Below are positions 628 to 27,400 of a stretch of DNA of 27,400 bases, piece after piece. Within the stretch, counting starts at the first letter, position 1, and the number at the start of each line of letters is the position of its first letter. The stretch comes from a virus. Made by a program: the position numbers and the translations under genes. Location: positions 1-27,400 of IMG/VR virus record IMGVR_UViG_3300034024_000021, one strand, 5' to 3'. The notes under the pieces are model-generated. The model was not told the DNA's origin. It did no database searches and saw nothing but the letters and a program-made list of their open reading frames with translations.

Positions 628-645
628 TTGACCGTGGAGTGTCAA
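628..645 (+). promoter_or_regulatory. Dispersed operator, copy 1
   Basis: TTGACCGTGGAGTGTCAA is a perfect TTGAC-N8-GTCAA inverted repeat. It lies upstream of the leaderless promoter of the 694 gene, with its GTGGAGT centre in the + orientation. Confidence 0.85.
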
Positions 646-680
646 GCGGACGGCCCGCCCGAGATGCCCCCTGGACCCCG

Positions 681-693
681 TACGATGGGCCAC
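681..693 (+). promoter_or_regulatory. Leaderless promoter (-10 box) of the 694 gene
   Basis: TACGAT at 681-686 is followed by seven bases and then the ATG at 694, which places the transcription start at or next to the start codon. There is no Shine-Dalgarno sequence before the ATG. No clear -35 box is seen; the 17-mer GAGATGCCCCCTGGACC lies at 661-677. Confidence 0.55.
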
Positions 694-2945: not shown

Positions 2946-3004
2946 TCACGCTGGGGCTGGCCCTGATCTTCGGGGGCGTGACGCTGGTCTGGAGCATGTG
3001 GTGA
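2942..3004 (+). CDS. 20-residue hydrophobic peptide, possible membrane peptide
   Basis: A GTG overlapping the portal stop (GTGA) opens a 20-codon frame encoding VITLGLALIFGGVTLVWSMW, which is almost entirely hydrophobic and long enough for one membrane span. Its stop overlaps the start of the MuF-like gene, so it fills the gap between two coupled genes exactly. This suggests real translation, although so short a frame can occur by chance. Its function is unknown. Confidence 0.4.
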   Translation: MITLGLALIFGGVTLVWSMW

Positions 3005-3822
3005 CCGGCCCGGTGTGGGACGGCCAGGGCCGTGACCCCTGGCTCCCCGTCCGGCTGGAGGCGCGCGCCGAGATTGCCTCGGTGGAGCGCGACATCCGGG
3101 CCGCTGTCTGGGCCGCGCTCTCGGACTGGCTGGTCCAGCTCGCGCGCCGCGTGCTCCGGGGGGACCAGCGTCCGGACATGGATGCCGTGTGGGCGATGGC
3201 CCCGCTGTGGCGCGAGGCCGTGGACCTGATCCTGAACGGCGAGGTGTGGAAGGCCATCGGCGTGGCGTTCGCCCGGGTGCTCGGCCCGGACTACAACTGG
3301 ACCCAGCGACCGGCCGTCACGGCGTACCTGGCCCAGGTTCGCAACCGGCTGGTCCGGGTGCCGGACGAGGTGTACGACCTGGTGGCCGGGGAGCTCGCCA
3401 AGGGCGTGAACCTCGGGGAGTCGATCCCCAAGCTGAGGGACCGCGTTGACAGTGTTCTGTCAACGACTGGTTCCGAGCGCTGGCCGAACCGCGCAACCGT
3501 CATCGCCCGGACCGAGACCATCGGCGCGCTGAACGCTGGCCGCGCCGATGCGTTCCGCGTGGTGGCGGCCGACGCGGACGAGCCGCTGGAGATGTTCTGG
3601 ATTGCCACTGACGACCACCGGACCCGGCGCACGCACGACGAGGCCGAGGGCCAGCGCGTCCCGGTGGGCGGCCGGTTCAACGTGGGAGGGTTCGAGCTCG
3701 CGTTCCCAGGCGACCCGAGCGGGCCTCCCCAGGAGGTCATCCAGTGCCGGTGCACCATGCTGTTGGTGGAGCCCGGCGAGACCGTAGACCTGAGCAACCG
3801 CCAGATGCGCCGCTCCCGGTAG
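2998..3822 (+). CDS. MuF-like minor capsid protein (phage head morphogenesis)
   Basis: This 274-residue protein lies directly after the portal, the usual place for MuF/SPP1 gp7-like proteins, which attach to the portal inside the prohead. The C-terminal half carries the typical family pattern: a RTET motif in ARTETIGALNAGR (about residues 168-180), then FWIATDDHRTRRTHDEAEGQ (about 201-220), and finally the cysteine motif QCRCT (about 249-253). The N-terminus is helical. Start is GTG at 2998, overlapping the preceding peptide's stop. An operator copy (3446-3463) lies inside the coding sequence and encodes VDSVLST. Confidence 0.85.
   Translation: MVTGPVWDGQGRDPWLPVRLEARAEIASVERDIRAAVWAALSDWLVQLARRVLRGDQRPDMDAVWAMAPLWREAVDLILNGEVWKAIGVAFARVLGPDYNWTQRPAVTAYLAQVRNRLVRVPDEVYDLVAGELAKGVNLGESIPKLRDRVDSVLSTTGSERWPNRATVIARTETIGALNAGRADAFRVVAADADEPLEMFWIATDDHRTRRTHDEAEGQRVPVGGRFNVGGFELAFPGDPSGPPQEVIQCRCTMLLVEPGETVDLSNRQMRRSR
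3446..3463 (+). promoter_or_regulatory. Dispersed operator, copy 2 (inside MuF-like gene)
   Basis: TTGACAGTGTTCTGTCAA is a perfect TTGAC-N8-GTCAA repeat inside a coding region, about 2.8 kb from copy 1. Confidence 0.8.
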
Positions 3823-5528: not shown

Positions 5529-5546
5529 TTGACGGTGAACTGTCAG
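5529..5546 (+). promoter_or_regulatory. Dispersed operator, copy 3
   Basis: TTGACGGTGAACTGTCAG lies just past the terminator. Its right half supplies the stop codon (TGA on the - strand) of the 5543-5728 gene. Confidence 0.8.
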
Positions 5547-5728
5547 GACTTGTTCTTGTGGCCCTGGCCCTTGCCGAACGTCTTGTCCGTCTGGGTCAGG
5601 AGGACCGAGCCGTCCGCCCGCTTGACGAACAGCTCGCCTTTCATCGGGGTCTGGTCCACCTCGTCCCGGGCGTACTCCCGGTCTGCCTTGTGTCCGGCGG
5701 TGGGCTGGTCGCGCTTGTCGTTGCTCAT
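5543..5728 (-). CDS. Small hydrophilic protein, unknown function
   Basis: This 61-residue protein is strongly charged, with an N-terminal MSNDKRDQPTAGHKADREYA, a central KGELFVKRADGSVLL strand-like part and a Lys/Gly/His-rich C-terminus. I do not recognise a family. Its ATG lies six bases after a -10 box with no ribosome site between, so it is probably expressed from a leaderless mRNA. Its stop codon lies in an operator, next to the 5496-5523 terminator. It forms a one-gene unit with its own promoter and terminator. Confidence 0.7.
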   Translation of the reverse strand: MSNDKRDQPTAGHKADREYARDEVDQTPMKGELFVKRADGSVLLTQTDKTFGKGQGHKNKS

Positions 5729-5734
5729 GCGTCT

Positions 5735-5763
5735 ACTTTACCGCGATGCCTGCAAAGAAGCAA
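5735..5763 (-). promoter_or_regulatory. Leaderless promoter of the 5543-5728 gene
   Basis: On the - strand, TTGCTT (5758-5763), a 17-base spacer and TAAAGT (5735-5740) form a promoter, followed by six bases and the ATG. The -35 box lies partly within the stem of the upstream terminator. Confidence 0.65.
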
Positions 5764-5792
5764 GGCCCGGACCGTGGTGGTCCGGGCCTTGC
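5760..5792 (-). terminator. Terminator of the 5803-6021 gene
   Basis: GCAAGGCCCGGACC and GGTCCGGGCCTTGC form a perfect 14-bp stem with a five-base loop; on the - strand it is followed by TTCTTTGC. It lies 10 bases after the stop codon of the reverse gene. Confidence 0.8.
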
Positions 5793-5802
5793 TCGGTCTC
5801 GC

Positions 5803-6021
5803 TCAGTACCCGCCGGTCTCGTCCACCAGCTCCACGAACACCCCGGCGGCCAGGCCAGCGGCGGTCAGCTCGGCCACGAAATCGGCCGGGGTGTCGGTCA
5901 CGCGGGTGGTCATCTGGCGGTTACGGCCGCCGGTGGTGTCGCGCACGTCCACGAAGTAGCGGCCCTCCACGCGGGCGTCGGTGGAGATGCTGACCCGGGC
6001 CTCTACGGTCTTGTCGCTCAT
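5803..6021 (-). CDS. Small beta-rich protein, unknown function
   Basis: This 72-residue protein begins MSDKTVEARVSISTDARVEG and is predicted by eye to be mostly strands, followed by a DTPADFVAELTAAGLAAG helix. I do not recognise the family. The start was placed at ATG 6021 because a GGAGAGGG ribosome site lies upstream and the -10 box at 6065-6070 excludes longer versions. It is a single-gene unit: operator-covered promoter in front, strong hairpin behind. Confidence 0.7.
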   Translation of the reverse strand: MSDKTVEARVSISTDARVEGRYFVDVRDTTGGRNRQMTTRVTDTPADFVAELTAAGLAAGVFVELVDETGGY

Positions 6022-6064
6022 TGTCTGTGTCCCTCTCCGCTGGCGTGCCCTGCTGATAGAGAGA

Positions 6065-6093
6065 ACATTACAGGCATGACAGTGAAGTGTCAA
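6065..6093 (-). promoter_or_regulatory. Promoter of the 5803-6021 gene with operator over the -35
   Basis: On the - strand, TTGACA (6088-6093), a 17-base spacer and TAATGT (6065-6070) form a near-consensus vegetative promoter. The -35 box is one half of operator copy 4, so repressor binding would block it. The same bases encode the end of the upstream gene (6068-6322). Confidence 0.75.
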
Positions 6094-6322
6094 CTCCGGG
6101 TTCCGCGTGATGTCCGGCCTGGCACCCGGCCGCGATGAGCGCGCGCTGGAACCGCACCGTGGCCGCCCACTCGTCATGCCGCGCCCGGCCCTTGTCCCGC
6201 ATCCCGGCCGGGCTCACGTCGTGGGCCGCGCCGGAGCCGTGGGCGAACCCCGGCCGGGGGATGAGCACGCTCGGCCGGGTGTCCAGCCAGCGCGCGCTCT
6301 CCTCCGAGCACGGGGCACACAT
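6068..6322 (-). CDS. Small CxxC protein, unknown function
   Basis: ATG at 6322 overlaps the stop of the preceding gene, giving an 84-residue protein. It begins MCAPCSEESARWLDTRPSVL, with an N-terminal CxxC, then has GFAHGSGAAHDVSPAGM and RARHDEWAATVRFQRALIAAG. The Cys and His residues suggest metal binding, but only weakly. I do not recognise the family. The longer upstream frame to 6598 is rejected because it is low-complexity antisense of the membrane gene. Its last ten codons overlap the promoter and operator of the next gene. Confidence 0.65.
   Translation of the reverse strand: MCAPCSEESARWLDTRPSVLIPRPGFAHGSGAAHDVSPAGMRDKGRARHDEWAATVRFQRALIAAGCQAGHHAEPGVDTSLSCL
6076..6093 (+). promoter_or_regulatory. 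Dispersed operator, copy 4
   Basis: ATGACAGTGAAGTGTCAA has one mismatch in the outer left base and an intact TGAC-N8-GTCA core. It spans the -35 box and part of the spacer of the reverse promoter. Confidence 0.85.
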
Positions 6323-6621
6323 CACCACGGCTGGTAACTCCCGGGCCTCGTCCGGGGCGGACCCGCCACCGGCGGCTCCGGCCGCTCGGCCCGCTGGCGT
6401 GCCCGCTCGCGCCGGTCCAGCTCGGCCAGGGCGCGCTCGCGGCGCGCGGCCGGGCGGTCCTGCCAGCGGCCGTACGCCCAGGCGTAGAGCCAGAACAGCG
6501 CGGCCACCAGGACCAGGCCAGCGAACAGCCAGGCCACGGCGGCCGACACGTAGTAGTCCACCGGCCCGCACTCGTACGGCCCCAGCTTGCTCGGACATGT
6601 GTACGCCAGGCGCGCCGTCAC
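6322..6621 (-). CDS. Single-span membrane protein, unknown function
   Basis: GTG at 6621 (overlapping the previous stop as GTGA) gives 99 residues. After a short N-terminal part with two cysteines (YTCPSKLGPYECGPVDYY) comes one long hydrophobic segment (about residues 25-48), then a highly charged Arg/Glu cytoplasmic tail and a Pro-rich end (PVAGPPRTRPGSYQPW). By the positive-inside rule the tail is cytoplasmic. It is translationally coupled on both sides. Its function is unknown; a host-surface or superinfection role is possible but has no sequence support. Confidence 0.65.
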   Translation of the reverse strand: MTARLAYTCPSKLGPYECGPVDYYVSAAVAWLFAGLVLVAALFWLYAWAYGRWQDRPAARRERALAELDRRERARQRAERPEPPVAGPPRTRPGSYQPW

Positions 6622-7276: not shown

Positions 7277-7304
7277 TTGCCTCCCCTTCCGTCGCTGTCC
7301 CTGT

Positions 7305-7333: not shown

Positions 7334-7339
7334 CCGAGA

Positions 7340-7365: not shown

Positions 7366-7367
7366 GG

Positions 7368-7744: not shown

Positions 7745-7750
7745 CCCCCC

Positions 7751-8584: not shown

Positions 8585-8613
8585 ACGTTACAGGCATGAC
8601 TGTGGAGTGTCAA
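8585..8613 (-). promoter_or_regulatory. Promoter of the 7812-8540 gene with operator over the -35
   Basis: On the - strand, TTGACA (8608-8613), 17 bases, TAACGT (8585-8590). Layout and spacer end (GTCATGCCTG) match the 6065-6093 promoter base for base over ten positions. Confidence 0.75.
8596..8613 (+). promoter_or_regulatory. Dispersed operator, copy 5
   Basis: ATGACTGTGGAGTGTCAA; same geometry as copy 4, covering the -35 box of the reverse promoter. Confidence 0.85.
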
Positions 8614-8658
8614 CACCCGGGGAGGAGGACATCTCGGCCGGGCTGGCCGTGCCGGTGC

Positions 8659-8664
8659 TACGAT
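8659..8664 (+). promoter_or_regulatory. Possible -10 box upstream of the capsid gene
   Basis: TGCTACGAT contains an extended -10-like TACGAT, identical to the hexamer before the 694 gene. No -35 box is evident. Operator copy 6 would lie on its start site. This would restart transcription after the reversed cassette. Confidence 0.35.
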
Positions 8665-8669
8665 CACGC

Positions 8670-8687
8670 TTGACATGCCAGCGTCAG
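8670..8687 (+). promoter_or_regulatory. Dispersed operator, copy 6
   Basis: TTGACATGCCAGCGTCAG has the intact TGAC-N8-GTCA core and a divergent centre. It lies 58 bases before the capsid start and 56 bases after copy 5, the closest spacing in the window. Confidence 0.7.
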
Positions 8688-10519: not shown

Positions 10520-11344
10520 ATGGCTCTGATCCCAGGGATGCCGGTCCCCGCGCCGGAATCGCTCCGCCGCCGGTACGGCCTGTTCGACGCGGCCAGCGGA
10601 CCGCTCGACCTCCCGGCACACGGGGAGGGCGGGGGCGTTCGGTTCGTCCCCGTGGCCTGTGGGCGTTCCATCGCCTACGGCGTCACGTGCTACGAGCCGG
10701 GGACCGCGCCGGTCAAGCCGCTGGACGGCGACGCTGACGAGGTTCAGACCGGCGTGTTCGTCGCGCTCTCCACGCTCAACTGTGGCGCGCCCGGCAACAG
10801 CACGACCGAGTATGAGGCCAAGGTCCGCCGCCGCCTGGAGCTGGCCGAACAGTCCGCCGTGGAGGCGGCACTGTGGACCGGCCTGGACTACCAGGACAAC
10901 GGGATGGGGACGCTGAGCCTTGACGGTGAAGCGTCAGACATCCCGACGAACTACGATCCCGGACTGATCACGGACGTGGTGGGCGCGCTGGAGCGGTTCG
11001 CCTACACGGACAACCAGTACGGGGGCGTGGCCTACCTCCACGCACCGATCGAGGTCGCGGCGTTCGCGGCCGAGGCCGGTCTGATCGTCCCCGAGGGCAC
11101 CGGCCCCACGGCGCGCAAGCTGACCCCGATGGGGTCCGTCTGGGCGTTCGGGGCGTACCCTCCCGGCTCGGTGATCATCACCGGCCAGACCACGGTCTGG
11201 CGCGCGCCGGAGATCCAGGTCTACAGCTCGTTCGAGAACGCCACGAACGAGGTCGTGCTGGTGGCCGAGCGCGCCTACTCGGTCGCTTTCGAGTGCTTCG
11301 CCGGACGGGCGGAGTTCGATCCTCTGGAGGAGGTGGGTTCGTAG
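10520..11344 (+). CDS. Putative capsid-associated structural protein
   Basis: This 274-residue protein sits between capsid and major tail protein. Its layout, with a CGRSIAYGVTCYEP region, a middle YEAKVRRRLELAEQSAVEAA helix followed by LWTG, then GGVAYLHAPIEVAAFAAEAG and TNEVVLVAERAYSVAFEC, resembles a class of actinophage head proteins with encapsulin/HK97-like features. It may be a second shell or vertex protein or a decoration protein; the exact role is uncertain. A GAGGAGG ribosome site precedes ATG 10520. An operator copy (10920-10937) is embedded in the gene. Its stop overlaps the next start (TAGTG). Confidence 0.6.
   Translation: MALIPGMPVPAPESLRRRYGLFDAASGPLDLPAHGEGGGVRFVPVACGRSIAYGVTCYEPGTAPVKPLDGDADEVQTGVFVALSTLNCGAPGNSTTEYEAKVRRRLELAEQSAVEAALWTGLDYQDNGMGTLSLDGEASDIPTNYDPGLITDVVGALERFAYTDNQYGGVAYLHAPIEVAAFAAEAGLIVPEGTGPTARKLTPMGSVWAFGAYPPGSVIITGQTTVWRAPEIQVYSSFENATNEVVLVAERAYSVAFECFAGRAEFDPLEEVGS
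10920..10937 (+). promoter_or_regulatory. Dispersed operator, copy 7
   Basis: TTGACGGTGAAGCGTCAG; core intact, inside the 10520-11344 coding region, + orientation. Confidence 0.75.
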
Positions 11345-12488: not shown

Positions 12489-12622
12489 TGGCCGACACGG
12501 TGGCGTGCCAGACCTGCCACGGCCAGGGTGAGATCCAGAAGGAAGTCAAGCCGGGCAAGTGGGAGACCCAGAAGTGTCCCGCCCGGTGCAACAACGGCAA
12601 GGTGAGCAAGCGCAACCTCTGA
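12488..12622 (+). CDS. 44-residue DnaJ-type zinc-finger-like protein
   Basis: ATG at 12488 overlaps the previous stop. The protein has CQTCHGQGEI near the N-terminus and KCPARCNNGKV near the C-terminus. The first is a good CxxCxGxG knuckle as in the DnaJ cysteine-rich domain; the second is a looser Cx3CxNG form. Four cysteines can bind one zinc. Such minimal proteins recur in actinobacteria and their phages; the role is unknown. The stop codon lies in operator copy 8, and a terminator follows. Confidence 0.7.
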   Translation: MADTVACQTCHGQGEIQKEVKPGKWETQKCPARCNNGKVSKRNL

Positions 12623-12636
12623 CAGTGCATCGTCAA
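12619..12636 (+). promoter_or_regulatory. Dispersed operator, copy 8
   Basis: CTGACAGTGCATCGTCAA. Its left half carries the TGA stop codon of the zinc-finger-like gene, and it lies directly before the terminator. Confidence 0.75.
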
Positions 12637-15928: not shown

Positions 15929-16618
15929 GTGGAGGTGGACCCGCTCGCGTCGATGCGGTGCTGGGCCATCGAGCTGGAGCTGGGGGGCCGGACGTTCGAC
16001 GTTCCGGCCCTCACGGCTGTGGACTGGTGGCCGGTGCTCACCTCGGCCGACCTGACCCAGATCCTTGACTTTGTAGTGTCAACGCCGGAGGACCCGTTCA
16101 ACCTGGACGATCTCCTCCTGGACGGGGAGCTGACCCAGGCCGAGCTCCAGACGGCGCTCACGGACGCGCTGGAGACGGCCTCGGGCCGCTCGCGCCACGT
16201 GACGTTCGTACTGGCGACCGTGGCGAGTCAGTTCTGGGCCTCGATCAACGGCGCGCTGGTCCGGCGTGGGTTCCGCTGGGAGGGCCAGCCGCTCGGCGCG
16301 GTGCTGGACGCTGTGTACGCCGAGCTCACCTCGCGGCTGGACAAGGACGAGCTGACCAAGTTCGAGGCGTTGCTGGCGGACGAGTCGCTGACCCAGCCGG
16401 GCAAGAAGCGCAAGCCCGCTCGCGCCGTGGTGAGCGAGTTCGAGTCGATGGCCGGGCCTCGGCCTACGACTGGTGTCGTAGCCACCTCCGGGCAGTCCGG
16501 TAATGCACGTCCCAAAACTCAGCCACGGCTCCGGCGGCCCCGCCAGGGCGGCCAGTCTGGCGAGCCCAGGCCGCCACGCGAGCCACGCGCTGGAAGTGAT
16601 CCGGCGGCCAGCTCCTAG
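15929..16618 (+). CDS. Second tail assembly chaperone-like protein
   Basis: GTG at 15929, one base after the preceding stop. Residues 1-150 form a helical body with LTAVDWWPVLTSADLTQILD, DGELTQAELQTALTDALETA, SQFWASINGALVRRGFRWEG and ELTSRLDKDELTKFEALLAD, like the tail chaperones that precede actinophage tape measures. The last 50 residues are Pro/Arg/Gly-rich, and they are coded opposite the end of the 16464-16892 gene. This tail may be an overrun with little function. An operator copy lies inside the gene at 16065-16082. Confidence 0.55.
   Translation: MEVDPLASMRCWAIELELGGRTFDVPALTAVDWWPVLTSADLTQILDFVVSTPEDPFNLDDLLLDGELTQAELQTALTDALETASGRSRHVTFVLATVASQFWASINGALVRRGFRWEGQPLGAVLDAVYAELTSRLDKDELTKFEALLADESLTQPGKKRKPARAVVSEFESMAGPRPTTGVVATSGQSGNARPKTQPRLRRPRQGGQSGEPRPPREPRAGSDPAASS
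16065..16082 (+). promoter_or_regulatory. Dispersed operator, copy 9
   Basis: TTGACTTTGTAGTGTCAA, perfect outer and inner arms, inside the second chaperone gene. Confidence 0.8.
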
Positions 16619-16963: not shown

Positions 16964-19897
16964 GTGACCGATGTCGGCAAGGCCAGAGTTGAGGTTGAGG
17001 GCGACGTACGCAACTTCGCCCGGAACACCGAACGGGACCTTGACCGTGCACTGTCACGGATCAACGTCCGGCCGGTGGAAGTGCCGATCGACTCGGACGG
17101 GGTGCGCAAGGCCGGAGAGAACGCGGGCCGGGACCTCGGGGACGGGATCACCGAGGGCGCGGACGGACGGCTCCGGGACGCACGCGGCAAGTTCGTGGCG
17201 ATGGGCGACCGGGCCGGGGCCGCCGCCGGGGAGGCCGTGGGCCGCTCGGCTGGCCGCAACATCGGCAAGAGCCTGGAGCGCAACACCGACGAGAGCGCCA
17301 TCCGCCGGTTCCTGGCCGGTCTGTTCGGCCGGACCGGCACCGACTCGGCAACGCTGTTCGCCAACTTCCTGACCAAGGGCATCCAGCGTCTCCCCGCGCT
17401 GATCGGCCCGGCGCTGATCCCCATCGGCGCGGCCGTGGCCGGTGGCATCGCGGTGGCCGCCGGTGCGGCGATCGGCTCGCTCCTGGGCGCGGCCATCACG
17501 GCCGGGGTGGGCCTGGGCGCGCTCGGCCTGGGGGTAATGCTCCTCAAGGAGGAGCCCGCTCTCAAGGCCGCCGCCAAGAGCCTGACCGACTCGATGAAGT
17601 CCGAGTTCACGGCCGCCGCCCAGCCGCTTCTCCAGCCTCTGGTCAAGGCCCTGGGCGAGTTCGAGAAGCTGACTCAGCGCATCGCTCCCCAGCTCAAGAC
17701 GATGTTCTCCGCGCTGGCCCCGGCCATCGCGCCGCTGACCGCCGGGCTGATCGGCCTCGTGGAGAATGCGCTCCCGGGGTTCGTCAACCTGGTGGCCTCC
17801 AGCGGGCCGGTCATCGCGGCGTTTGCCACGGGGCTGTCCGAGACCGGCGGCGCGCTCCGCAACATGTTCGACAACATCGCCTCGGTGAGCCCTGAGCTCG
17901 GCGTATTCTTTGGCGATTTCTTCGACGGTATCCAGTTCCTGATCAGCAAGCTGGGCGAGTTCATCGCCTGGTCCGCCCGGACGTACACGGCAATTCGTGA
18001 GGTCGTTACCGGGTTCAGCTCGTGGGGCGAGGCATTCGACTACGCCGTTACGGCGATCCAGAACCTGATCAGCCAGGGGCTCTCGTACCTGGCTGACAAT
18101 CTACCGTCAATCATTGAGCGGATCATCGCGTTCCGCCAGCAGGTCACGGACGCCATTCTCAAGATGGTGACCGGGCTGGCCGACGCGCTCCCGACGATCG
18201 TCCCCCAGATCATCCAGGGCGTGATCCAGCTCGTGACCGGCCTGGTCAACGCGCTGGTGAGCTCGGCCCCCCGGATCATTGAGGCCGCCGTGGCCCTGGT
18301 CCAGGGCCTGGTGACCGGCATCGTGAGCGCGCTCCCGACGCTGATCCCGGCAATCGTCCAGCTCGCCACCACGCTGATCACGGGCATCATCGCAGCGATC
18401 CCCCAGCTCATCCAGGCTGGCATCCAGTTGATCCAGGGCCTGATCACGGGCCTGTTGACCGCGCTCCCCACGGTCGCCACGGCGCTGATCACGGCCATCC
18501 CCCAGATCCTCTCGGCGTTCATCGCGGCGGCCCCCCAGCTCCTCATGCTGGGGATCAACCTGATTACCGCCATCGTCCAGGGCATCGGCCAGGCCATGCC
18601 CCAGATCGTGGCCGCGATCCAGAATGACCTCATCCCGACGCTGCTCAACACGCTGAGCACCCAGGGTCCGGCCCTGATGCAACAGGGCCTCGCCATGCTG
18701 ATGAGCCTCGCCCAGGGGTTCATCGACAACATCGGGATCATCACCTCCACGATCACCGGCGTGATCATCCCGGCCATCACCCAGCTATTCCAGAACGCGC
18801 CGCAATTCGTTGAGGCCGGAATCGCTGTGCTGACCCAGCTCCTCAATGCGTGGGTGGCGAATCTGCCGCTGTTGACCCAGTTCATCACCGGCGTTCTGAT
18901 CCCCCAGATTGCCGCGTTCCTGAAGAATGCCCCGGCCATTCTCCAGGCCGGTATCGACATGATCCTGAAGATTGTCGAGGCGTTCAATACGGCGCTGCCG
19001 ATGATCATCAGCTTTGTGACGGACACGCTGATCCCGACGCTGGTCCAGGCGCTGATCGACAACGGGCCTCAGCTCGCGGCGGCTGCGGGCCAGATCATGG
19101 TCATGCTCACCGTGGCGTTCATCAAGGCCATCCCTCAGCTTGTGGGCGCGGTCCTGAAGATCAACGCGGCCATCACCTCGGGGCTGCTCTCGGCGCTCGG
19201 CCAGATCATCGCGGCCGGTGCCCGGCTCATGGTCGGGTTCGTGACCTCGATCATCAGCAACGGCGTGGGGGCGGCGCGCAACGCCATCAACAGCGTGAAG
19301 AACGCCATCGTCTCGGCCGCGAGCTCGGCCGCTTCCTGGCTGGTCTCGGCCGGGCGCTCGGTGGTCAACGGCCTGATCTCGGGCATCAGCGCGATGATCG
19401 GCGCGGCGCGGTCCAAGGTCGCCAGCATCAAGAGCGCCGTGACCGGTGCGCTGGCGGGGGCCGGGTCCTGGCTGGTGAGCGCTGGCCGCCAGATCATTGA
19501 CGGTCTGATCTCCGGCATCCAGGCCGGGTTCGGCCGGGTGCGGGGGCTGCTCAACTCGCTGACCTCGATGCTCCCGGACTGGAAGGGTCCGGCCGAGGTG
19601 GACCGCAAGATCCTGGAGCCCTCGGGTGACATGGTGATGGCCGGGTTCGAGAAGGGCCTGGAGTCGCGGTTCGCCAGCATCCGCAAGACCCTGGGCGACC
19701 TGACCGGCGACCTCCCCAGCTTCGCCTCTCCGGCCGGGAGCCGGACGCGCGGCGGCGATGGCGCGGCCCTGGGCGGTACCGTCCAGATCACCGTGGAGGC
19801 TGGAGCCATCGTGATCCAGGGCCAGGGGCGCGAGGCTGGCCGCGAGGCCGCCGAGGCTGTCCTGGAGCTCCTGGGGCAAGCTACCTTGGCACGATGA
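16964..19897 (+). CDS. Tape measure protein
   Basis: At 977 residues this is the longest helical, low-complexity protein of the tail block, and its length sets the tail length. Residues 1-115 are charged and helical (MTDVGKARVEVEGDVRNFAR). Residues about 140-190 are hydrophobic Ala/Gly-rich (possible membrane segments). From about 370 to 760 there are repeated amphipathic segments such as AIPQLIQAGIQLIQGLITGL. Near the end come two similar blocks, SWLVSAGRSVVNGLISGI and SWLVSAGRQIIDGLISGI, then MLPDWKGPAEVDRKILEPSG, a motif common to actinophage tape measures. Operators lie at 17040 and 18093. By the usual rule of about 0.15 nm per residue the tail would be near 150 nm (inference). Confidence 0.92.
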   Translation: MTDVGKARVEVEGDVRNFARNTERDLDRALSRINVRPVEVPIDSDGVRKAGENAGRDLGDGITEGADGRLRDARGKFVAMGDRAGAAAGEAVGRSAGRNIGKSLERNTDESAIRRFLAGLFGRTGTDSATLFANFLTKGIQRLPALIGPALIPIGAAVAGGIAVAAGAAIGSLLGAAITAGVGLGALGLGVMLLKEEPALKAAAKSLTDSMKSEFTAAAQPLLQPLVKALGEFEKLTQRIAPQLKTMFSALAPAIAPLTAGLIGLVENALPGFVNLVASSGPVIAAFATGLSETGGALRNMFDNIASVSPELGVFFGDFFDGIQFLISKLGEFIAWSARTYTAIREVVTGFSSWGEAFDYAVTAIQNLISQGLSYLADNLPSIIERIIAFRQQVTDAILKMVTGLADALPTIVPQIIQGVIQLVTGLVNALVSSAPRIIEAAVALVQGLVTGIVSALPTLIPAIVQLATTLITGIIAAIPQLIQAGIQLIQGLITGLLTALPTVATALITAIPQILSAFIAAAPQLLMLGINLITAIVQGIGQAMPQIVAAIQNDLIPTLLNTLSTQGPALMQQGLAMLMSLAQGFIDNIGIITSTITGVIIPAITQLFQNAPQFVEAGIAVLTQLLNAWVANLPLLTQFITGVLIPQIAAFLKNAPAILQAGIDMILKIVEAFNTALPMIISFVTDTLIPTLVQALIDNGPQLAAAAGQIMVMLTVAFIKAIPQLVGAVLKINAAITSGLLSALGQIIAAGARLMVGFVTSIISNGVGAARNAINSVKNAIVSAASSAASWLVSAGRSVVNGLISGISAMIGAARSKVASIKSAVTGALAGAGSWLVSAGRQIIDGLISGIQAGFGRVRGLLNSLTSMLPDWKGPAEVDRKILEPSGDMVMAGFEKGLESRFASIRKTLGDLTGDLPSFASPAGSRTRGGDGAALGGTVQITVEAGAIVIQGQGREAGREAAEAVLELLGQATLAR
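17040..17057 (+). promoter_or_regulatory. Dispersed operator, copy 10
   Basis: TTGACCGTGCACTGTCAC, core intact, 77 bases into the tape measure gene, where a bound protein could block early elongation. Confidence 0.75.
18093..18110 (+). promoter_or_regulatory. Dispersed operator, copy 11 (weak)
   Basis: CTGACAATCTACCGTCAA keeps TGAC-N8-GTCA, but its centre lacks the GTG feature of the other copies. It may be a chance or decayed match. Confidence 0.45.
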
Positions 19898-19913: not shown

Positions 19914-22900
19914 ATGGGCACGATCACCACGCTCCGCCCCAGCTCGACCTCCTCGGGGGTCGGCTGGACGCCGAGTACAGGCACGCTCCACGGCGTGACC
20001 TCGGATAACTCCGATGCGACGTACGCGACCTGGGGCGGCTCCGGCTCGGCGCTGATCCTCGGCACGCCGGTGGACAGTCCCCCCGTGGGGGAGCGGCGGC
20101 ACCAGGTTCGGCTCCGGATGCGCGGCGAGGACGGGGACTCGTGGGGCGCGGTCCGGCTGAGTTCCGGCGCGCTGGCCGCTGGCGTGGCCGCCCAGTTCCC
20201 TGCCTCCCCGGCCACGGTGACGGGCTCGTGGGGGTTCGGCGCTCCGGCGGACGGCTCCACGATCCTCTACACCTACGTGACCGGGCAGACCGCTGGCGTC
20301 CGGATCGAGGAGCTGTATATCGAGGTGGACAGCCGCGAGGCCCCCACCTTCACGCCTCAGATCCAGGACGGCTCCGGCGCGATCACCACCACGATCTCCG
20401 ACACGGCCCAGCCCACCATCCGGGCCAGCGCGGTGGACCTGGACGACCTGGGCGCGCGCCAGTACCGGTACTGGGTCACGCTCAACGGGGCCACCGTCTG
20501 GGATACCGGCATCGTCTCGGGCACGGCCACGGCGCGCCAGACGGCCGCCCTGGACAACGGCTCGTATGTGGCCCACCTCCAGGTCTGGAGCACGCTCGGC
20601 CAGAACACCGCGTACCCCAGCGACGAGGAGACCCTGGCGTTCACCGTCCAGGTGGGCCAGGTCGCCAAGCCCGAGAACCCCACGGTGGTGCCGGTGGAGG
20701 GCTCCCCGTTCTACGACATCCAGGCGTGCGCTCCGTTCGTGGAAGACCTGGACGGTGGCGTGGGGTTCGTGGAGGTCCAGCGGGTGGACTGCCCGGTGGG
20801 CGGATACCTGACGCTGACCGGCTCCGGGGACAGCTACGCCAGCGCGCCGACCCCGAGCGGCACCCCGCCGGTGGACCTGGAGCTGGTGATCCAGGCCGGG
20901 CGCGATGACGGCTGGCGGCCGGATGCCGAGGAGACGCTGGCCTCCCACTACCTGACCACCGGCGAACAGCGGGCGTGGCGCTTCAGCCTCCAGAACGATG
21001 GCCGGGTGGAGTTCGCCTGGAGCGAGGACGGGACCAGCACGCTGGAGTTCGCCACCTCCACGGACAACGTGCCGGTGGACCCGTTCGGCAACGCTTGGGT
21101 CCGGGTGCGCTTCACGGCGGACAGCGCCGGAGCCTGGCTCGTGGAGTTCGCCTCGCGCGACGACGAGAGCTCGCCCTGGGCCGCCCTCGGGGAGCCGGTC
21201 ATCGGTGCCGTTCCCCGGCCGCTGTTCAACTCCACGGCGGACTACCTCGTGGGCGCGTACATGAGCGGGTCCGGCCCGCTGAACCGCTGGACCGGCCGGG
21301 TCTACTCGGCCCAGTTCCGCTCGGGGCCGGACGGCGAGCTCATGCTGAGCCCCGACTTCAGCAACCACCTGGACGGCACGGCCGACTTCGAGGACGGCCA
21401 GGGGAACCCCTGGACGGTCCACAGCCCGGCCAGGATCTACTCGCCCACCTCCACGGTCACCGTGGCGATGCTCGGCCCGCTGGAGTCCGATGCGTGCGCC
21501 TCGTGGGTGGACTACACCCTCCCCCGGACCGGCGTGGGCGTGACGTGCGAGCACAACCCCGAGTCGTGCTGCTCGTACTACCGGGCGCGCACCGTGGGCC
21601 GGGTGGACGGGGACCTCCGGATCTCGGACTGGTCCGATGTCTACGACGCGGGTATCCCGGCGGGCCTGATCGTGATGTGGCCGGGGACGAACGCCAGCAT
21701 CCCGGCCGGGTGGGAGCGGACCACCGAGCTGGACGGCAAGTACCCCAAGGGCGTGGCGAGCGCGGCCACCCAGCCGGGCACCACCGGCGGCGCGGCGACG
21801 CACAGCCACACGCTCCCGACGCACACCCACGACACCAGCCACGGCCACACGGTGACCGGCGCGAGCGGCACGGCCACCGGCACGGTCAACAGCTCGGACG
21901 GTGCGGTGGGCACCACGGCCGGGCTCCCGACCCACACCCACACCCGCTCGCCGCTGAACAGCGCGACGGTTGTCAGCGGTACGGCCACCCCGGGGAGCGG
22001 GACCGGTAGCAACGACCCGGCGCGCGCCGAGGTCGTGTTCATCGAGTCGGACGGCTCGCCGCTCGGTGTGCCGGTCGGCGCGGCGGCCCTCACCGGTGAC
22101 ATTGCACTGTCAGGCTGGGCGGACTCCTCGCTGGCGAACACCGGCGGCCGGTACCTGAAGGGCGCGACCGCCGGGGGCAACGGCGGCACCACGGCGGCCA
22201 GCGGCGTGGCGGCCCACGCGCACAGCATCGCGGACCACACCCACGCGGGGACCAGCCACACGCACACGAGCCCGTCCACCGGCACGTTCAACAGCAACCG
22301 CTCGCTGTTCGCCGGTCCGACCTCGGCCATGTGGACCATCAGCCACAGCCACCCGGTCAACGTCACGGCGGCCACCTCGGCCGCGCTCGCCCTGGGCGGC
22401 GCTGGCAGCTCCGGCGCGGCCGGTCAGCTCAACCCCCCGTTCCGCCAGCTCCGGCTCCGCGAGAACGTCTCGGCCGGAGTCTCGCTCCCCGTGGGCCTGA
22501 TCTGTCTCTGGCGCGGCTCGCTCGGCTCGATCCCGGACAACTGGAAGCTGTGCGACGGGACCGAGGGGACGCCGGACATGTTCGGCCTGTACCCCCGGGT
22601 GACCACCGACGCGGCGACCGTGGGCACCACCGGCGGCTCCCTGGACCCGCACACCCACACCAGCCCCAGCCACACGCACACCACCGGCACCCACAACCAC
22701 GCCACGGCGATCCCCTCGGGGGCCGCCGCCACGACCCTGGTCAGCTCGACCAACACCCTGGCCGTGGTGACCGGCACGCACACGCACACCTCCACCAACT
22801 CCGACAACGCCACTCCGACCGTGGGCGGCTCGACCTCGGGCACCCTGGCGAGCACCACGACGGAGCCGCCGTTCGAGGAGGTGGCGTTCGTCCAGCTTGT

Positions 22901-23336
22901 GGAGGAGCCGGTACCGCCGCCGGACCCGGATGTGTTCTGCCTGGAGTGGGACCAGGACCAGCACCTGATCCGGACCACCGGCCCGAACGGGCCGATGTGG
23001 GCTCCGGTGCTGGGGAAGTTCGAGTGGTCCGTGGACCGGCCGTTCACGGCGGCCACCGGTCTGATGGGCTCGCGGTTCGTCACGAGCGCCGCGCCGGGTG
23101 GCCGGGACCTGACCATGACGGCGGCCGTGGAGTCCGAGGCCGAGCTGGCCCGGCTCCGCGCGGTGCTGGCCCGGCCGCTGGTGCTCATCTCCCCGAGCGA
23201 CGCGAGCGAGGTCTGGGCCGCGCCGGTGGCCGAGTCGGTCCGCATCGTCAAGGTGGGCCGCATCCGCCAGGTGACCGCGACGTTCATCGGGACCGGCCCC
23301 GAGCCCGCTCCCCAGCTTGCCGACGTGGGAGTATGA
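19914..23336 (+). CDS. Minor tail protein with collar modules and a lectin-like insertion
   Basis: This 1140-residue protein starts at ATG 19914 after GGGGAGG. Residues 1-290 are beta-rich and share an N-terminal TSDNSD segment and an immunoglobulin-like part with the next gene. Residues about 296-510 look like a LamG/concanavalin fold (SHYLTTGEQRAWRFSLQNDG, YLVGAYMSGSGPLNRWTGRV) and are absent from the paralogue. Three collar-type modules follow, near 580 (GLIVMWPGTNASIPAGW), 710 and 858 (VGLICLWRGSLGSIPDNW). They have many HxH motifs (HSH, HTH, HGH), like the iron-binding HxH motifs of T4 gp37. The C-terminal 150 residues are a beta domain. Likely role: tail tip or receptor binding. Operator copy 12 lies within it. 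Confidence 0.75.
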   Translation: MGTITTLRPSSTSSGVGWTPSTGTLHGVTSDNSDATYATWGGSGSALILGTPVDSPPVGERRHQVRLRMRGEDGDSWGAVRLSSGALAAGVAAQFPASPATVTGSWGFGAPADGSTILYTYVTGQTAGVRIEELYIEVDSREAPTFTPQIQDGSGAITTTISDTAQPTIRASAVDLDDLGARQYRYWVTLNGATVWDTGIVSGTATARQTAALDNGSYVAHLQVWSTLGQNTAYPSDEETLAFTVQVGQVAKPENPTVVPVEGSPFYDIQACAPFVEDLDGGVGFVEVQRVDCPVGGYLTLTGSGDSYASAPTPSGTPPVDLELVIQAGRDDGWRPDAEETLASHYLTTGEQRAWRFSLQNDGRVEFAWSEDGTSTLEFATSTDNVPVDPFGNAWVRVRFTADSAGAWLVEFASRDDESSPWAALGEPVIGAVPRPLFNSTADYLVGAYMSGSGPLNRWTGRVYSAQFRSGPDGELMLSPDFSNHLDGTADFEDGQGNPWTVHSPARIYSPTSTVTVAMLGPLESDACASWVDYTLPRTGVGVTCEHNPESCCSYYRARTVGRVDGDLRISDWSDVYDAGIPAGLIVMWPGTNASIPAGWERTTELDGKYPKGVASAATQPGTTGGAATHSHTLPTHTHDTSHGHTVTGASGTATGTVNSSDGAVGTTAGLPTHTHTRSPLNSATVVSGTATPGSGTGSNDPARAEVVFIESDGSPLGVPVGAAALTGDIALSGWADSSLANTGGRYLKGATAGGNGGTTAASGVAAHAHSIADHTHAGTSHTHTSPSTGTFNSNRSLFAGPTSAMWTISHSHPVNVTAATSAALALGGAGSSGAAGQLNPPFRQLRLRENVSAGVSLPVGLICLWRGSLGSIPDNWKLCDGTEGTPDMFGLYPRVTTDAATVGTTGGSLDPHTHTSPSHTHTTGTHNHATAIPSGAAATTLVSSTNTLAVVTGTHTHTSTNSDNATPTVGGSTSGTLASTTTEPPFEEVAFVQLVEEPVPPPDPDVFCLEWDQDQHLIRTTGPNGPMWAPVLGKFEWSVDRPFTAATGLMGSRFVTSAAPGGRDLTMTAAVESEAELARLRAVLARPLVLISPSDASEVWAAPVAESVRIVKVGRIRQVTATFIGTGPEPAPQLADVGV
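22096..22113 (+). promoter_or_regulatory. Dispersed operator, copy 12
   Basis: GTGACATTGCACTGTCAG; core intact, inside the first collar protein gene, about 4 kb from copy 11. Confidence 0.65.
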
Positions 23337-23340: not shown

Positions 23341-26151
23341 ATGGCTGTGACCAACGTTCTCCGGCCGGTCTCGGTGCGCAAGACCGGGGCCGGGACCGCC
23401 GTGCCCTCGGGCACCCTGGCCGCCGTCACCTCGGACAACTCGGATTCGACGTACATCCGGTTCCTGGACTCGGCCTCGGGCAACTGGTCTCTGAGGCTGG
23501 AGCCGCACACCCCGGCCGCCGGGTACCAGCGGCACCGGATCAGGGGTCGCATTCGCATCGCGTGCGACGCCGGGACGATGACGGAAGACATCGACCTGGG
23601 CCGGGGCGAGACCGACTACATCGAGTACGACACGCTCCCGGTCACGGACGTGATGACCGAGCAACAGGGGGAGTGGTACACCACCCCGGCCTACGGTCTC
23701 GGCACCGTGGGCGCGCTCTCGGACCTCAACATCGGCGGGGGCTGGCCGGACCTGGAGAGTGGAGCCGGGACCGAGATCCGGACCGCCGAGGCGTACGTGG
23801 ACATCGACTGTCGGCTCCGGCCGCAGTACGCGCCCGAGGTCCAGGACAACGCCGGGGACGACCAGACCGGCGGCACGATCACCGACACGAACCAGCCGGT
23901 GCTCTATTTCGGTTCGGTCGGGTACGACGGTCTCCCGGCGCTCAACTGGGCCGTGACGGTCAAGCAGGGCGCGGCCGTGATCTTCACGACCTCGGGCTCC
24001 GGCCAGCCCCCGGCCGAGGTGCCGGTGGGGACGGGCCTCGATGACGGCGCGTACACGGCGGAGTTCGTGGTCCGCTCCACGATCCGTGACTCCGACCCGT
24101 TCGAGTATGCCCAGACGCGGGCGTTCAGCGTCCAGAACACGGTCCCCCCGCCGTCCCCTCCCCTGGTCACGGTGACCGCCGAGATGGGCGGGTACCGGGT
24201 CACCTGGGAGAACCCCGGCGGCCAGGCGTGGGACAACGACTATGTGGTGGCCGAGCTCTGGCGCGACGATTGCACCGGCTCCCAGCGCATCGCCACCGTG
24301 CCCAACGGGCTGAACGGCTCGTACCTGGACCTGGCGATTCCCCAGCTCGATCCCCAGCCGGTGCCTGGTCCTGACTGTGAAGTGTCAACCGAGGCGTGTG
24401 ACATCACGTACCGGGTGCGCTACCTGGGCTACGTCTCCACGTTCGTGGAGCTCCCGAGCACCATCCCGGCGGACATGATCCTGGGCTGGCCGGGCACGGC
24501 CGCCAGCATCCCGAGCGGCTGGACCCGGATCACCACGCTGGACGGAGTGTTCCCCCGGGGCACCAGCGGCACCGGCGCGCCGGTCGCCACCGGCGGCACG
24601 GCCAGCCACAGCCACACGCTCCCCGGCCACAGCCACTCGATCGGCGCGCACAGCCACGGCCTGGGCGGCTCCACGGGGAGCTCGGACAGCTCGACCACCT
24701 CGGCGCGGTTCAACGGTGCGAGCCAGCCCCAGGCGAGCCAGCCCCACACGCACACCCGGCCGGGCTCCACTGGCTCGCACGGTGGCGGCTCCTCCAGCTC
24801 GACCGCCCCGGGGACGAGCACGGCGAACAACGCTCCCCCGGCGCGTGACGTGATCTGGATCAAGAGCGACGGCGCGCAAGCCAGCTACCCGGTCGGCATC
24901 CTGGGCTGGGCGACCGAGAGCGTGTCCGGCTGGACCGACGATGCGACCTCGGCCGGGCGCTTCCTCAAGGGCGCTCCGGCGGCCGGGAACGGCGGGGCCA
25001 CCTCGGGCGCGGCGACGCACACCCACTCGGTCAACGCGCACACCCACAACGGCATCAGCCACGACCACTCGATCGGCTCCACCTCGCTGTCCAATCCGTC
25101 CAGCTCGGTGGACGCCGGGTACGGCTCCAGCTCCCCGCGCTGGCTCCCGAGGCACACCCACCCGATGGACGTGATCTCGGCCAGCACCGGCAACACCAAC
25201 AGCGTGGGCGGGGGGACCTCCAGCGCGGTCAACCTGGAGCCCCCTAACCGGCGGCTCCGCGTACTGCGCAACACCGGCGGGGGCACCCAGACCCGGATCA
25301 TCGGCCTGTACCAGGGCACGGTGGCCGCGCTGAATCCGCTCCTGACGCTGTGCAACGGTGCCGGGGGTACGCCGGACATGCGGACGTACTTCGCCCGCGA
25401 GAAGGGCTCCGACTCGGTGAACAGCACCGGGGGGACCTCGGCGCACACTCACACGACCCCGAGTCACACGCACGACATCGGCGGGCACAGCCACGACACC
25501 AACGTGGGCACCAGCAACACCGGCTCGTTCGAGCGGCCCTCGTTCGGTGACCTCGGGGACAGCCCGACGACCGGCCACACGCACAGCTCCGGCAACACCG
25601 CGAGCGCCAGCCCCGGTGTCAGCTCCTCGGGCTCCGGCACCACGAACAGCGTCAGCCACATCCCCCCGTACCGGGAGGTGCATTTCGTCCGGCTGGACGG
25701 CACGATCTCCGGCGGCCCGCTCCCGGTGCCGGAGCTCAAGGTCTCGGACTTCGCCAGCGCGACCGTGCCCAGCTTCACCTACGGGGACGACCTGGACCGG
25801 CTGAGCACGTTCACCGAGAAGGTGGCCGTGGCCTCGGACCGCTCGCACACGTTCCCCCGGCTCGTGGCGGACACGGTGCCGCTGGACGGTGGCCTCCCCT
25901 CGGTCAGCACCACGCTGGCCGGGGAGGACATGACCTTGACGCTGGCGGCCGAGGGCCTTCCGGCGATCAACCGGCTGGAGCGCATCCTGAGCGCGGACCG
26001 CGTGTACTGGAGTCCCGTGGGCGGGACGCCGGGCTGGTACGCGCCGGGCGGCTGGTCCGTCCGGGCTCCGGCCCCGAACGTGAAGGTGCTTCAGGTCACG
26101 ATGGTCCGCCAGCCGTGGCCCGAGACCGATGACCCCGAGGAGTACCTGTAA
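23341..26151 (+). CDS. Minor tail protein, paralogue of the preceding gene
   Basis: ATG at 23341, four bases after the preceding stop, gives 936 residues. The N-terminus (PSGTLAAVTSDNSDSTYIRF) parallels the previous protein (HGVTSDNSDATY). The next part has the same ITDTNQP/ISDTAQP signature and an FSVQ/FTVQ boundary. Three collar-type modules lie near residues 374 (MILGWPGTAASIPSGW), 516 (VGILGWATESVSGW) and 652 (IIGLYQGTVAALN), each with dense HxH motifs such as SHSHTLPGHSHSIGAHSH. It lacks the lectin-like insertion. Tandem duplication is likely. Operator copy 13 lies within it. Its stop overlaps the next start (TAATG). Confidence 0.75.
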   Translation: MAVTNVLRPVSVRKTGAGTAVPSGTLAAVTSDNSDSTYIRFLDSASGNWSLRLEPHTPAAGYQRHRIRGRIRIACDAGTMTEDIDLGRGETDYIEYDTLPVTDVMTEQQGEWYTTPAYGLGTVGALSDLNIGGGWPDLESGAGTEIRTAEAYVDIDCRLRPQYAPEVQDNAGDDQTGGTITDTNQPVLYFGSVGYDGLPALNWAVTVKQGAAVIFTTSGSGQPPAEVPVGTGLDDGAYTAEFVVRSTIRDSDPFEYAQTRAFSVQNTVPPPSPPLVTVTAEMGGYRVTWENPGGQAWDNDYVVAELWRDDCTGSQRIATVPNGLNGSYLDLAIPQLDPQPVPGPDCEVSTEACDITYRVRYLGYVSTFVELPSTIPADMILGWPGTAASIPSGWTRITTLDGVFPRGTSGTGAPVATGGTASHSHTLPGHSHSIGAHSHGLGGSTGSSDSSTTSARFNGASQPQASQPHTHTRPGSTGSHGGGSSSSTAPGTSTANNAPPARDVIWIKSDGAQASYPVGILGWATESVSGWTDDATSAGRFLKGAPAAGNGGATSGAATHTHSVNAHTHNGISHDHSIGSTSLSNPSSSVDAGYGSSSPRWLPRHTHPMDVISASTGNTNSVGGGTSSAVNLEPPNRRLRVLRNTGGGTQTRIIGLYQGTVAALNPLLTLCNGAGGTPDMRTYFAREKGSDSVNSTGGTSAHTHTTPSHTHDIGGHSHDTNVGTSNTGSFERPSFGDLGDSPTTGHTHSSGNTASASPGVSSSGSGTTNSVSHIPPYREVHFVRLDGTISGGPLPVPELKVSDFASATVPSFTYGDDLDRLSTFTEKVAVASDRSHTFPRLVADTVPLDGGLPSVSTTLAGEDMTLTLAAEGLPAINRLERILSADRVYWSPVGGTPGWYAPGGWSVRAPAPNVKVLQVTMVRQPWPETDDPEEYL
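24371..24388 (+). promoter_or_regulatory. Dispersed operator, copy 13
   Basis: CTGACTGTGAAGTGTCAA inside the second collar protein gene; centre TGTGAAGT is close to copies 4 and 5. Confidence 0.75.
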
Positions 26152-27224
26152 TGGCTACGAGGTTCGCCAGCGCGCGGCACCAGGCGGCGCTCAGCACGCC
26201 AACGGGGTTCCGCCGGTGGTCGCGGTTCACCTTCTCGCGCGGTGGCGTCACGCGCGACCTGGAGCCCACCGGCGGCTCGATCACCCAGGACGCGCGCCGG
26301 AAGGCCCGGTGGGACGGGCGGCTCACGTTCGCCGGGGACTCGCTCCTCCCCCGGCGGCCGGGCGACCTCCTGACCCCGTTCGGTACGCGGCTCCAGATCG
26401 AGCTCGGCCTGGAGCTCCTGGACGGCTCGATCTCCACCGTGCCGTACGGCACGTTCGAGGTGGCCTCGGCGCGCACCCGGACCGAGGCCGGTCAGCGCGT
26501 GGTGGACGTGGGCCTGATCGACATCAGCGACAACGTGGAGCGGTACCGGTTCGAGACACCGTTGACGGTGCCGAGCGGGACCGACCTGGCGACGATGGTC
26601 AACTCGGTGGTGACCAACCGGTCCGGCCAGAACCCCGGGGTGAGCCCGACCGGCGCGCTCCTGGGCGCGGCCCGGATCTTCGGCCTGGACCCGGCTACGG
26701 CCCCGTGGTCCGAGATCCTGGACGTGCTGGACAGCTTCAGCCGGACGGCCTGGTACAACCGGGTGGGTGCGATCCAGATCGGGACGCTGACGCCGGACCC
26801 GGTGACCGCGTACCCGCTGGACCTGATGACCTCGCTGTCCGCCGACTACGACACCCGGCCGCCCAACGTGATCGTGGCGCGCGGCGAGGCCCAGGACGGG
26901 ACCGCGCCGGTCCAGGCGGTGGCCGTTGACAGTGACCCGTCAAGCCCGACGTACGCCGGGACCGGGCCGGGCACGAGCCCGTACGGCCGGGTGACGGAGT
27001 ATTTCAGCTCCCCCCTGATCAAGACCGTGGCCCAGGCCCAGGCCGCCGCCAACACGATCCTGAGCCAGAACGTGGGCGCTGGCGCGACGTACACCCTGGT
27101 CCGTCCGTACGATCCCACGATCTCCGCCGGGGACGTGGTGAGCCTGGAGGGCTCGGCGCTCGCGGTGGACTCCGTGACGCTCGATCTGTCCGGGGACACA
27201 AGCCTCCAGGTCCGGGAGCTCTGA
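26151..27224 (+). CDS. DUF5047-like minor tail protein (putative baseplate hub)
   Basis: This 357-residue protein begins MATRFASARHQAALSTPTGF and has WSRFTFSRGGVTRDLEPTGG followed by SITQDARRKARWDG. It then has a GDLLTPFGTRLQIELGLELL segment and VPYGTFEVASARTRTEAGQR, the arrangement I associate with DUF5047-type proteins of actinophage tail tips. C-terminal repeats (TVAQAQAAANTILSQ, VSLEGSALAVDSVTLDLSG) resemble gp27/hub proteins that hold the tail spike. The position between collar proteins and an OB-fold protein fits a hub. Operator copy 14 is inside. Confidence 0.65.
   Translation: MATRFASARHQAALSTPTGFRRWSRFTFSRGGVTRDLEPTGGSITQDARRKARWDGRLTFAGDSLLPRRPGDLLTPFGTRLQIELGLELLDGSISTVPYGTFEVASARTRTEAGQRVVDVGLIDISDNVERYRFETPLTVPSGTDLATMVNSVVTNRSGQNPGVSPTGALLGAARIFGLDPATAPWSEILDVLDSFSRTAWYNRVGAIQIGTLTPDPVTAYPLDLMTSLSADYDTRPPNVIVARGEAQDGTAPVQAVAVDSDPSSPTYAGTGPGTSPYGRVTEYFSSPLIKTVAQAQAAANTILSQNVGAGATYTLVRPYDPTISAGDVVSLEGSALAVDSVTLDLSGDTSLQVREL
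26926..26943 (+). promoter_or_regulatory. Dispersed operator, copy 14
   Basis: TTGACAGTGACCCGTCAA, perfect arms, inside the hub-like gene. Confidence 0.75.
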
Positions 27225-27400
27225 TGCTCGACTACACGAGCCTGCTCAAGAAGCTGGCCCCCGAGGACGACGGGGAGGACTTCCTCCGGCTCCGCGTGGG
27301 CACGGTCAGCGTGGTCAACGCCAACGGCACCCTTGACATCACAATGTCAAGCGGCGTGATCGTCCCCGGGGTGCCCAAGCTGGCGACCGCCCACGCGCCG
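27224..27400 (+). CDS. N-terminal part of an OB-fold baseplate protein (runs off window)
   Basis: ATG at 27224 overlaps the previous stop (TGATG). The visible 59 residues begin MLDYTSLLKKLAPEDDGEDF and continue with RLRVGTVSVVNANGTLDITM and VIVPGVPKLATAHAP. The 'VGTV..VNANGTLDI....VIVPGVP' pattern is that of OB-fold tail-spike or hub proteins (gpV-like) that follow hub genes. The 3' end is beyond the window. Operator copy 15 lies within. Confidence 0.6.
   Translation, partial: MLDYTSLLKKLAPEDDGEDFLRLRVGTVSVVNANGTLDITMSSGVIVPGVPKLATAHAP
27333..27350. promoter_or_regulatory. Dispersed operator, copy 15
   Basis: TTGACATCACAATGTCAA, perfect arms. The centre reads GTG only on the - strand, so this copy may be inverted relative to the others. 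Confidence 0.7.

Follow-up and report, generated by a model that had tools for sequence, protein, structure and literature searches.

A single gapped palindrome, TGAC-N8-GTCA, recurs through the structural genes of the soil bacteriophage DNA considered here, which raises the question of what the copies do and which protein could read them. The window, that is, the whole stretch of 27,400 bases that was analysed, is a genome fragment covering the left half of a phage, the half with the structural genes. Its portal, head, capsid and tail genes are read rightward, and a block of small genes at 5543-8540 is read leftward. The Actinoplanes phage phiAsp2 (NC_005885, 58,638 bases) shares about 80% DNA identity with the window phage, and about 60 metagenomic relatives in IMG/VR have portals that are 60-85% identical; near-complete relatives and several fragments were examined.

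Occurrence of the palindrome

All 15 copies listed in the original prediction exist, although each position was given as that of the preceding base and TGAC starts one base later. The proposed scan of the genome and its relatives against shuffled sequence gave 15 copies in the window against 0.47 expected from dinucleotide shuffling (maximum 3 in 100 shuffles), in line with the early estimate of well under one, and a chance origin of the sites is thereby excluded. Most relatives carry 16-36 copies, with 36 in phiAsp2 and 16-32 in most near-complete relatives, and the reversed-pattern control gives 0-1, which shows that the motif family is real. A spacing of 8 between TGAC and GTCA is the only one to stand out in the window, each other spacing occurring once or not at all. 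TGAC-8-GTCA is also the top-scoring gapped palindrome in both the window and phiAsp2, where a scan of other arms and spacings found none comparably enriched. The distant capsid relatives TPA2 and Fireball, and also Vendetta, have 0-1 copies, and remote Streptomyces prophages, whose capsids share 34-39% identity, have none.

The full palindrome is an 18-bp TTGAC-N8-GTCAA with both arms fixed at spacing 8. As had been noticed, most copies share a centre, 10 of the 15 reading GTG at positions 2-4. The sites and the associated promoter element are as follows.

Operator sequence, arm TGAC: TTGACACTTCACAGTCAA
629..644, + strand: site 1, in the intergenic space ahead of the gene that precedes the portal gene; exact match to the full TTGAC..GTCAA
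3447..3462, + strand: site 2, within the MuF-like head morphogenesis gene 3001-3822; 43/48 relatives keep the arms
5530..5545, + strand: site 3, overlapping the stop codon of the leftward gene 5543-5728
6077..6092, - strand: site 4, over the -35 (6093-6088) of a leftward promoter with a spacer of 17 and the -10 TAATGT at 6070-6065
8597..8612, - strand: site 5, overlying the -35 of the promoter from which gene 7812-8540 is read leftward, with the -10 TAACGT at 8590-8585; conserved in relatives
8656..8664, + strand: extended -10 TGcTACGAT of an inferred capsid promoter; start predicted near 8671
8671..8686, + strand: site 6, where the capsid transcript is predicted to start; conserved
10921..10936, + strand: site 7, in gene 10520-11344; poorly conserved (3/26)
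12620..12635, + strand: site 8, providing the TGA stop of gene 12488-12622
16066..16081, + strand: site 9, in gene 15929-16618; arms kept in 15/16
17041..17056, + strand: site 10, a short way into the large tail gene 16964-19897, a homologue of pas27; arms kept in 8/16
18094..18109, + strand: site 11, in gene 16964-19897; conserved in 0/15, possibly a chance occurrence
22097..22112, + strand: site 12, in gene 19914-23336; conserved in 7/16
24372..24387, + strand: site 13, in gene 23341-26151; conserved in 13/15
26927..26942, + strand: site 14, in gene 26151-27224; conserved in 6/16
27334..27349, + strand: site 15, near the fragment's right end; similar site at 17603 in G006

Sites on promoters

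Three classes of site can be distinguished: those on the -35 of leftward promoters, that at the point where capsid transcription is predicted to begin, and those in or between genes. In the promoter type, TTGAC(A) of the palindrome serves as the -35, followed after a 17-bp spacer by TAATGT, TAAGGT, TAAAGT or TAACGT (consensus TTGACACTTCACAGTCA-nGCCTG-TAAnGT). Of 438 sites scanned in 23 related records, 136, about 30%, lie exactly 17 bp before TAnnGT. The promoter-type sites of the window, at 6077 and 8597, both read leftward into the small-gene block, and orthologues of the first promoter-operator are found in phiAsp2 at 6096 and in the relative G004 at 45026. The conserved control region of phiAsp2, at 31-37 kb, likewise has leftward and rightward operator-promoters around the small protein Pas39. 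The site at 8671 lies about 7 bases past the extended -10, just upstream of the capsid gene; this element and the site are kept together in many relatives, for example at 47845 in G004, 26593 in G001 and 33670 in G010, the centre bases differing. The rest of the window sites, in or between genes, have no promoter partner. Within the leftward block, a promoter-like box on the minus strand (TTGCAA-17-TAAGGT, 7305-7333) has a spacer resembling the operator (CTTGCAGTCA) and, judged by its sequence, is possibly a degenerate operator-promoter of that block.

Sites inside genes

It had been thought that the sites ignore reading frame; instead, all nine window sites lying wholly in called genes are framed as (nnT)(GAC)(nnn)(nnn)(nnG)(TCA), and the same frame is found in 94 of 108 in-gene sites from 12 relatives. 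Permutation of synonymous codons within the window genes produced a mean of 0.07 sites, with no frame preference, and such shuffles gave 0.07-0.75 sites per genome compared to up to 13 observed. The preferred frame has the least cost to the protein sequence, while frame 0 would create a stop, suggesting that the in-gene sites evolved under coding constraint rather than being randomly dropped copies. Two sites supply stop codons, as had been stated, namely 12620 on the plus strand and 5530 for a minus-strand gene; the former has orthologous stop-codon sites with differing centre bases at, for example, 12111 in phiAsp2, 51649 in G004 and 1482 in G006.

Conservation of in-gene arms beyond codon constraint, another check put forward with the original prediction, was found at 3447, 16066 and 24372, which lie far above their gene background. 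The arms at 3447 are the best kept of 268 same-frame positions, the gene-wide mean being 0.116, and the centre is more variable than the arms both there and at 16066. At 17041, 22097 and 26927, the arms are kept in 38-50% of relatives. The in-gene sites are under selection. The direction ascribed to the sites holds as a bias among in-gene copies, which relative to the promoter-type site are antisense in 86 cases, sense in 42 and ambiguous in 10, but this bias is only 2:1. Collectively, the selection, the sharing among relatives and the copies on promoters bear out a dispersed operator- or stoperator-like family, and a dispersed operator network in these phages is well supported.

A gene that accompanies the palindrome

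The original prediction invoked a repressor and put no name to it. Comparison of all phiAsp2 genes and open frames among the relatives covering the region revealed Pas43 as the sole soluble protein present in 17 of 17 motif-bearing genomes and 0 of 6 motif-poor ones. The half of the genome that holds pas43 lies outside the window, and its presence in the window phage is inferred from close relatives. Pas43 corresponds to the PHROGs entry phrog_6361, of unknown function. In 27 homologues, H99, E100, H103 and H121 are invariant, forming an HExAH with a downstream histidine, and a C-terminal zinc ribbon with CxC...CxxC is conserved. The structural model (mean pLDDT 80) has SPRTN (6mdw) as its best structural neighbour, over 103 residues at 3.4 A with a Z of 8.2, a fold score barely above the level reached by unrelated models. 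The Pfam SprT-like family matches Pas43 at E 0.007, below the family cut-off; Foldseek alone gave no significant match, and a sequence search of the PDB gave none. Taken together, the sequence and the model indicate a SprT-like metallopeptidase with a C-terminal zinc ribbon.

The position of the gene also connects it with the palindrome. In phiAsp2, G006 and G035, pas43 starts about 7 bases after a -10 whose -35 falls in an operator, and the message is therefore probably leaderless and autoregulated. In the close structural relative G014, the pas43 module has been lost along with almost every site, and HTH_3 genes are present instead, which looks like a swap of control systems; of its 3 sites, two or three remain as promoter-operators despite the lack of pas43.

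The palindrome and Pas43 in unrelated elements

Divergent Pas43 homologues with 31-43% identity occur in otherwise unrelated elements. Within 200 bp upstream of 17 such genes, 6 sites were found compared to 0.055 expected (P 4e-11), whereas the same interval upstream of 19 chromosomal SprT-like controls contained none. Two further divergent homologues have a site flush after the stop codon. The TGAC site is lacking at nine divergent homologues (L316, L317, L323-L326, L328, L329 and L332). The homologues of G258 and G204, also without TGAC sites, share TTGGC-GTGTACAC-GCCAA near the gene, which differs from the operator by one changed arm base at the same spacing.

The cluster in G225 was found independently of Pas43 by a motif scan of 297 Actinomycetes genomes, and its region holds 7 sites together with a 40% identical Pas43. 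Conversely, when 394 genomes were searched with an alignment of Pas43, only G186, G117 and G225 passed E 1e-60, and in each of them the palindrome is flush with or near pas43. The G225 element is an integrated prophage, with the order T2SSE gene, serine integrase, recombination directionality factor, head and tail genes, Pas43 and T2SSF gene, so that Pas43 stands near one prophage end. This prophage (L282-L285 and L372; G225:C1, about 35.7-99.6 kb) sits within a tad-like T2SSE/T2SSF cluster, and its directionality factor is Gp3-like. A phage in IMG/VR with 44% GC and a P22-type portal (L318) has sites 40 bases before the pas43 start and just past its stop. Another (L314), which encodes a family A DNA polymerase, an L5 gp49-like protein, Lsr2 and a divergent Pas43, has 9 full 18-bp sites in 15 kb, where 0.46 would be expected by the 16-bp pattern. 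The IMG/VR records L312 and L319 also carry divergent homologues. When phiAsp2 and eight divergent motif-bearing elements were compared all against all, Pas43 was the only family common to all; because the eight were chosen for having both the motif and Pas43, this comparison shows only the absence of another shared candidate.

Two other sets of repeats were seen in these searches. A 42.8 kb contig with a Pas43-like protein (G304:C2, L354-L356) has no TGAC sites and has other dispersed palindromes, TCGAC-N9-GTCGA in 13 copies and TAGCG-N6-CGCTA in 9. The repeat TTGACGCTTCTATGTCAA in G117, G101, G278 and G196, genomes of one order, probably belongs to a mobile element and has no relation to the phage operator.

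A proposed repression network and its binder

With somewhat more confidence than doubt, we read the sites as operators of a phage-wide repression network of which the Pas43 family is the most likely binder. Pas43 would either bind the operators itself or act as a protease that partners their binder. A phage-encoded dimer would occupy the 18-bp TTGAC-N8-GTCAA. At early promoters the TTGACA hexamer of the -35 lies under the palindrome, and binding would therefore exclude RNA polymerase; at the capsid promoter, the bound palindrome would lie over the predicted start. Sites in and between genes could act as stoperator-like roadblocks to stray transcription of lytic genes, so that the site-bound repressor would silence a dormant genome. 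Since the pas43 promoter usually carries a site, the gene would be autoregulated.

The invariance of the catalytic HExxH...H suggests that the repressor may carry its own off-switch. By analogy with SPRTN biology, we would guess this to be self-cleavage on single-stranded or damaged DNA. In its most far-reaching form, which we put forward tentatively and hold with less than even confidence, Pas43 would represent a new class of repressor, in which a zinc protease of SPRTN fold reads a palindrome, represses its own promoter and many other promoters and genes, inactivates itself proteolytically upon DNA damage, and spreads among unrelated phages as an immunity module of one gene together with its dispersed operators. 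We know of no SprT-like protein that acts as a sequence-specific repressor, and a literature search found none named as such. Binding by Pas43 itself is opposed by the lack of a helix-turn-helix in its model, by the HTH_3 proteins also encoded in G225, by the promoter-operators that persist in G014 without pas43 and by the nine divergent homologues that have no TGAC site; Pas43 could be a target and partner instead of the binder.

The main rival explanation keeps the same operator network and makes Pas43 an operator-controlled anti-repressor protease that cleaves a separate DNA-binding repressor. The invariant HExxH...H and the metallopeptidase fold would suit this role, and two-gene systems of the kind, ImmR/ImmA and IrrE/DdrO, are established (PMC10233336, PMC7907104). 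The HTH_3 proteins in G225 keep the explanation alive. However, the only HTH protein conserved across the motif-bearing phages is Pas39, which also occurs where the motif does not, and the nine motif-bearing elements have no family other than Pas43 in common. Moreover, the same arms are found in elements from low- and high-GC hosts, which a changing repressor would not predict. We therefore regard an anti-repressor role as possible but doubtful.

Binding by Pas39, a small HTH_17 (MerR/excisionase-like) protein of the control region, is improbable. It is present in every motif-bearing genome covering the region, divergent from operator-controlled genes, but it is also intact in G014, with 82% identity and the same recognition helix next to 3 sites, and it occurs in G028 and G030-G032, which have 1-2 sites and no motif family. 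It is missing from the set common to the divergent motif-bearing elements, and its presence in motif-poor genomes excludes it as a sufficient binder. Small HTH proteins related to Pas39 (L205-L255, A4), encoded by widely differing phages and prophages of actinobacteria, share a C-terminal tail, RPGQGARTD, that hardly varies. Besides Pas39, no HTH protein conserved in the family was found, the window being a fragment. The RFX-like Pas1 and Pas2 were rejected because only about half of the relatives have them, and an HTH_3 repressor because such genes are merely scattered in the family. The genes pas1 and pas2 (L005:55-640) encode adjacent, related small phiAsp2 proteins; a weak match to the RFX winged helix (E 1e-4), seen among phiAsp2 proteins lacking an assigned role, agrees with the record's note on Pas1.

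Two further explanations, that a host transcription factor binds the sites and that the sites are a non-regulatory DNA signal for packaging, recombination, segregation or methylation, are both very unlikely. The former draws on the lack of an identified phage HTH repressor, but TTGAC-N8-GTCAA is near chance in the 297 Actinomycetes genomes (mostly 0-3 copies, like the control, with a maximum of 8 and no sign of a regulon), and the motif follows the phage gene across hosts of 44-74% GC. The latter fits sites that are dispersed, palindromic and placed in genes, yet not the fixed distance to a -10 seen for about 30% of them, nor the site on the capsid transcript start and those adjoining pas43 promoters in unrelated elements.

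Comparison with known systems

The sites of Cluster A phages such as L5 and Bxb1 are asymmetric sequences of 13-14 bp that lie mostly between genes and mainly point one way (PMC3029335, PMC6550527), and are bound by a monomeric repressor with an HTH and a stoperator domain (PMC6550527, PMC9283540). Those of Rhodococcus CA (PMC5721134) and Gordonia A15 (PMC5559632) phages are also asymmetric, at 13-14 bp, and where stated predominantly in one orientation. As in the present family, Cluster A genomes have dispersed copies, 20-30 in number, with one on an early promoter and a proposed silencing role; here, the early promoters at 6077 and 8597 carry sites, and the family has 136 promoter-type sites. 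The site end TGTCAA is common to both, perhaps because each overlaps a TTGACA -35 box. By contrast, the present site is an 18-bp palindrome, more than half of the window copies lie in genes, and the orientation bias is 2:1. With both arms fixed and a largely intragenic distribution, the sites could not be equated with the L5 site that one copy had been said to resemble. Being palindromic, often intragenic and weakly oriented, the family would work like the L5-type stoperators but is not a member of that group.

The conserved inverted repeats of phiC31 are palindromic repressor sites found on many early promoters and elsewhere, and the present sites can be likened to them by description, as palindromic, putative repressor sites on early promoters. 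To our knowledge, dispersed repressor sites are confined to a small number of actinophage groups, and those of their repressors that have been characterised are HTH proteins. Streptomyces R4-type phages have a repressor-stoperator system with recognised repressors and serine integrases (PMC10276819); the likeness is again one of description, the recognised repressor and the integrase being features of the R4-type phages.

In ImmR/ImmA and DdrO/IrrE, as here, an HExxH metalloprotease is tied to a regulon of palindromic operators, but the ImmA/IrrE proteases belong to another family and act on a separate HTH repressor, none of which is conserved here. Pas43 has in common with SprT/SPRTN the fold, the HExxH with a third histidine and a zinc-binding C-terminal part. 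We know of no sequence-specific binding or repression by SPRTN, which acts in DNA-protein crosslink repair. SPRTN is activated by DNA and cleaves itself (PMC5128726, PMC7826251).

The same palindrome thus adjoins the phrog_6361 gene in several unrelated phage types. If Pas43 is the repressor, phages lacking a recognised repressor gain one, and phage SprT-like proteins gain a role beyond DNA repair. A repressor with a built-in protease, if true, would link DNA damage directly to induction. Homologues that are 31-43% identical and have identical or one-base-shifted operators make the evolution of specificity testable.

Lifestyle of the window phage

The original prediction that the phage is temperate or derived from a temperate one has been neither borne out nor refuted. 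Tyrosine and serine integrases and ParA (PF00589, PF00239 and PF13614) are absent from 20 related records, the window being a fragment. When GTDB genomes were searched with the window capsid, the only hits were the Streptomyces prophages of 34-39% capsid identity, the peptides used being such as would recognise 12 of the 20 family members compared, window included; plasmid records gave distant matches only. Lysogeny of the window phage is therefore unproven. A distant integrated prophage, that of G225, does carry the same motif together with a Pas43 homologue.
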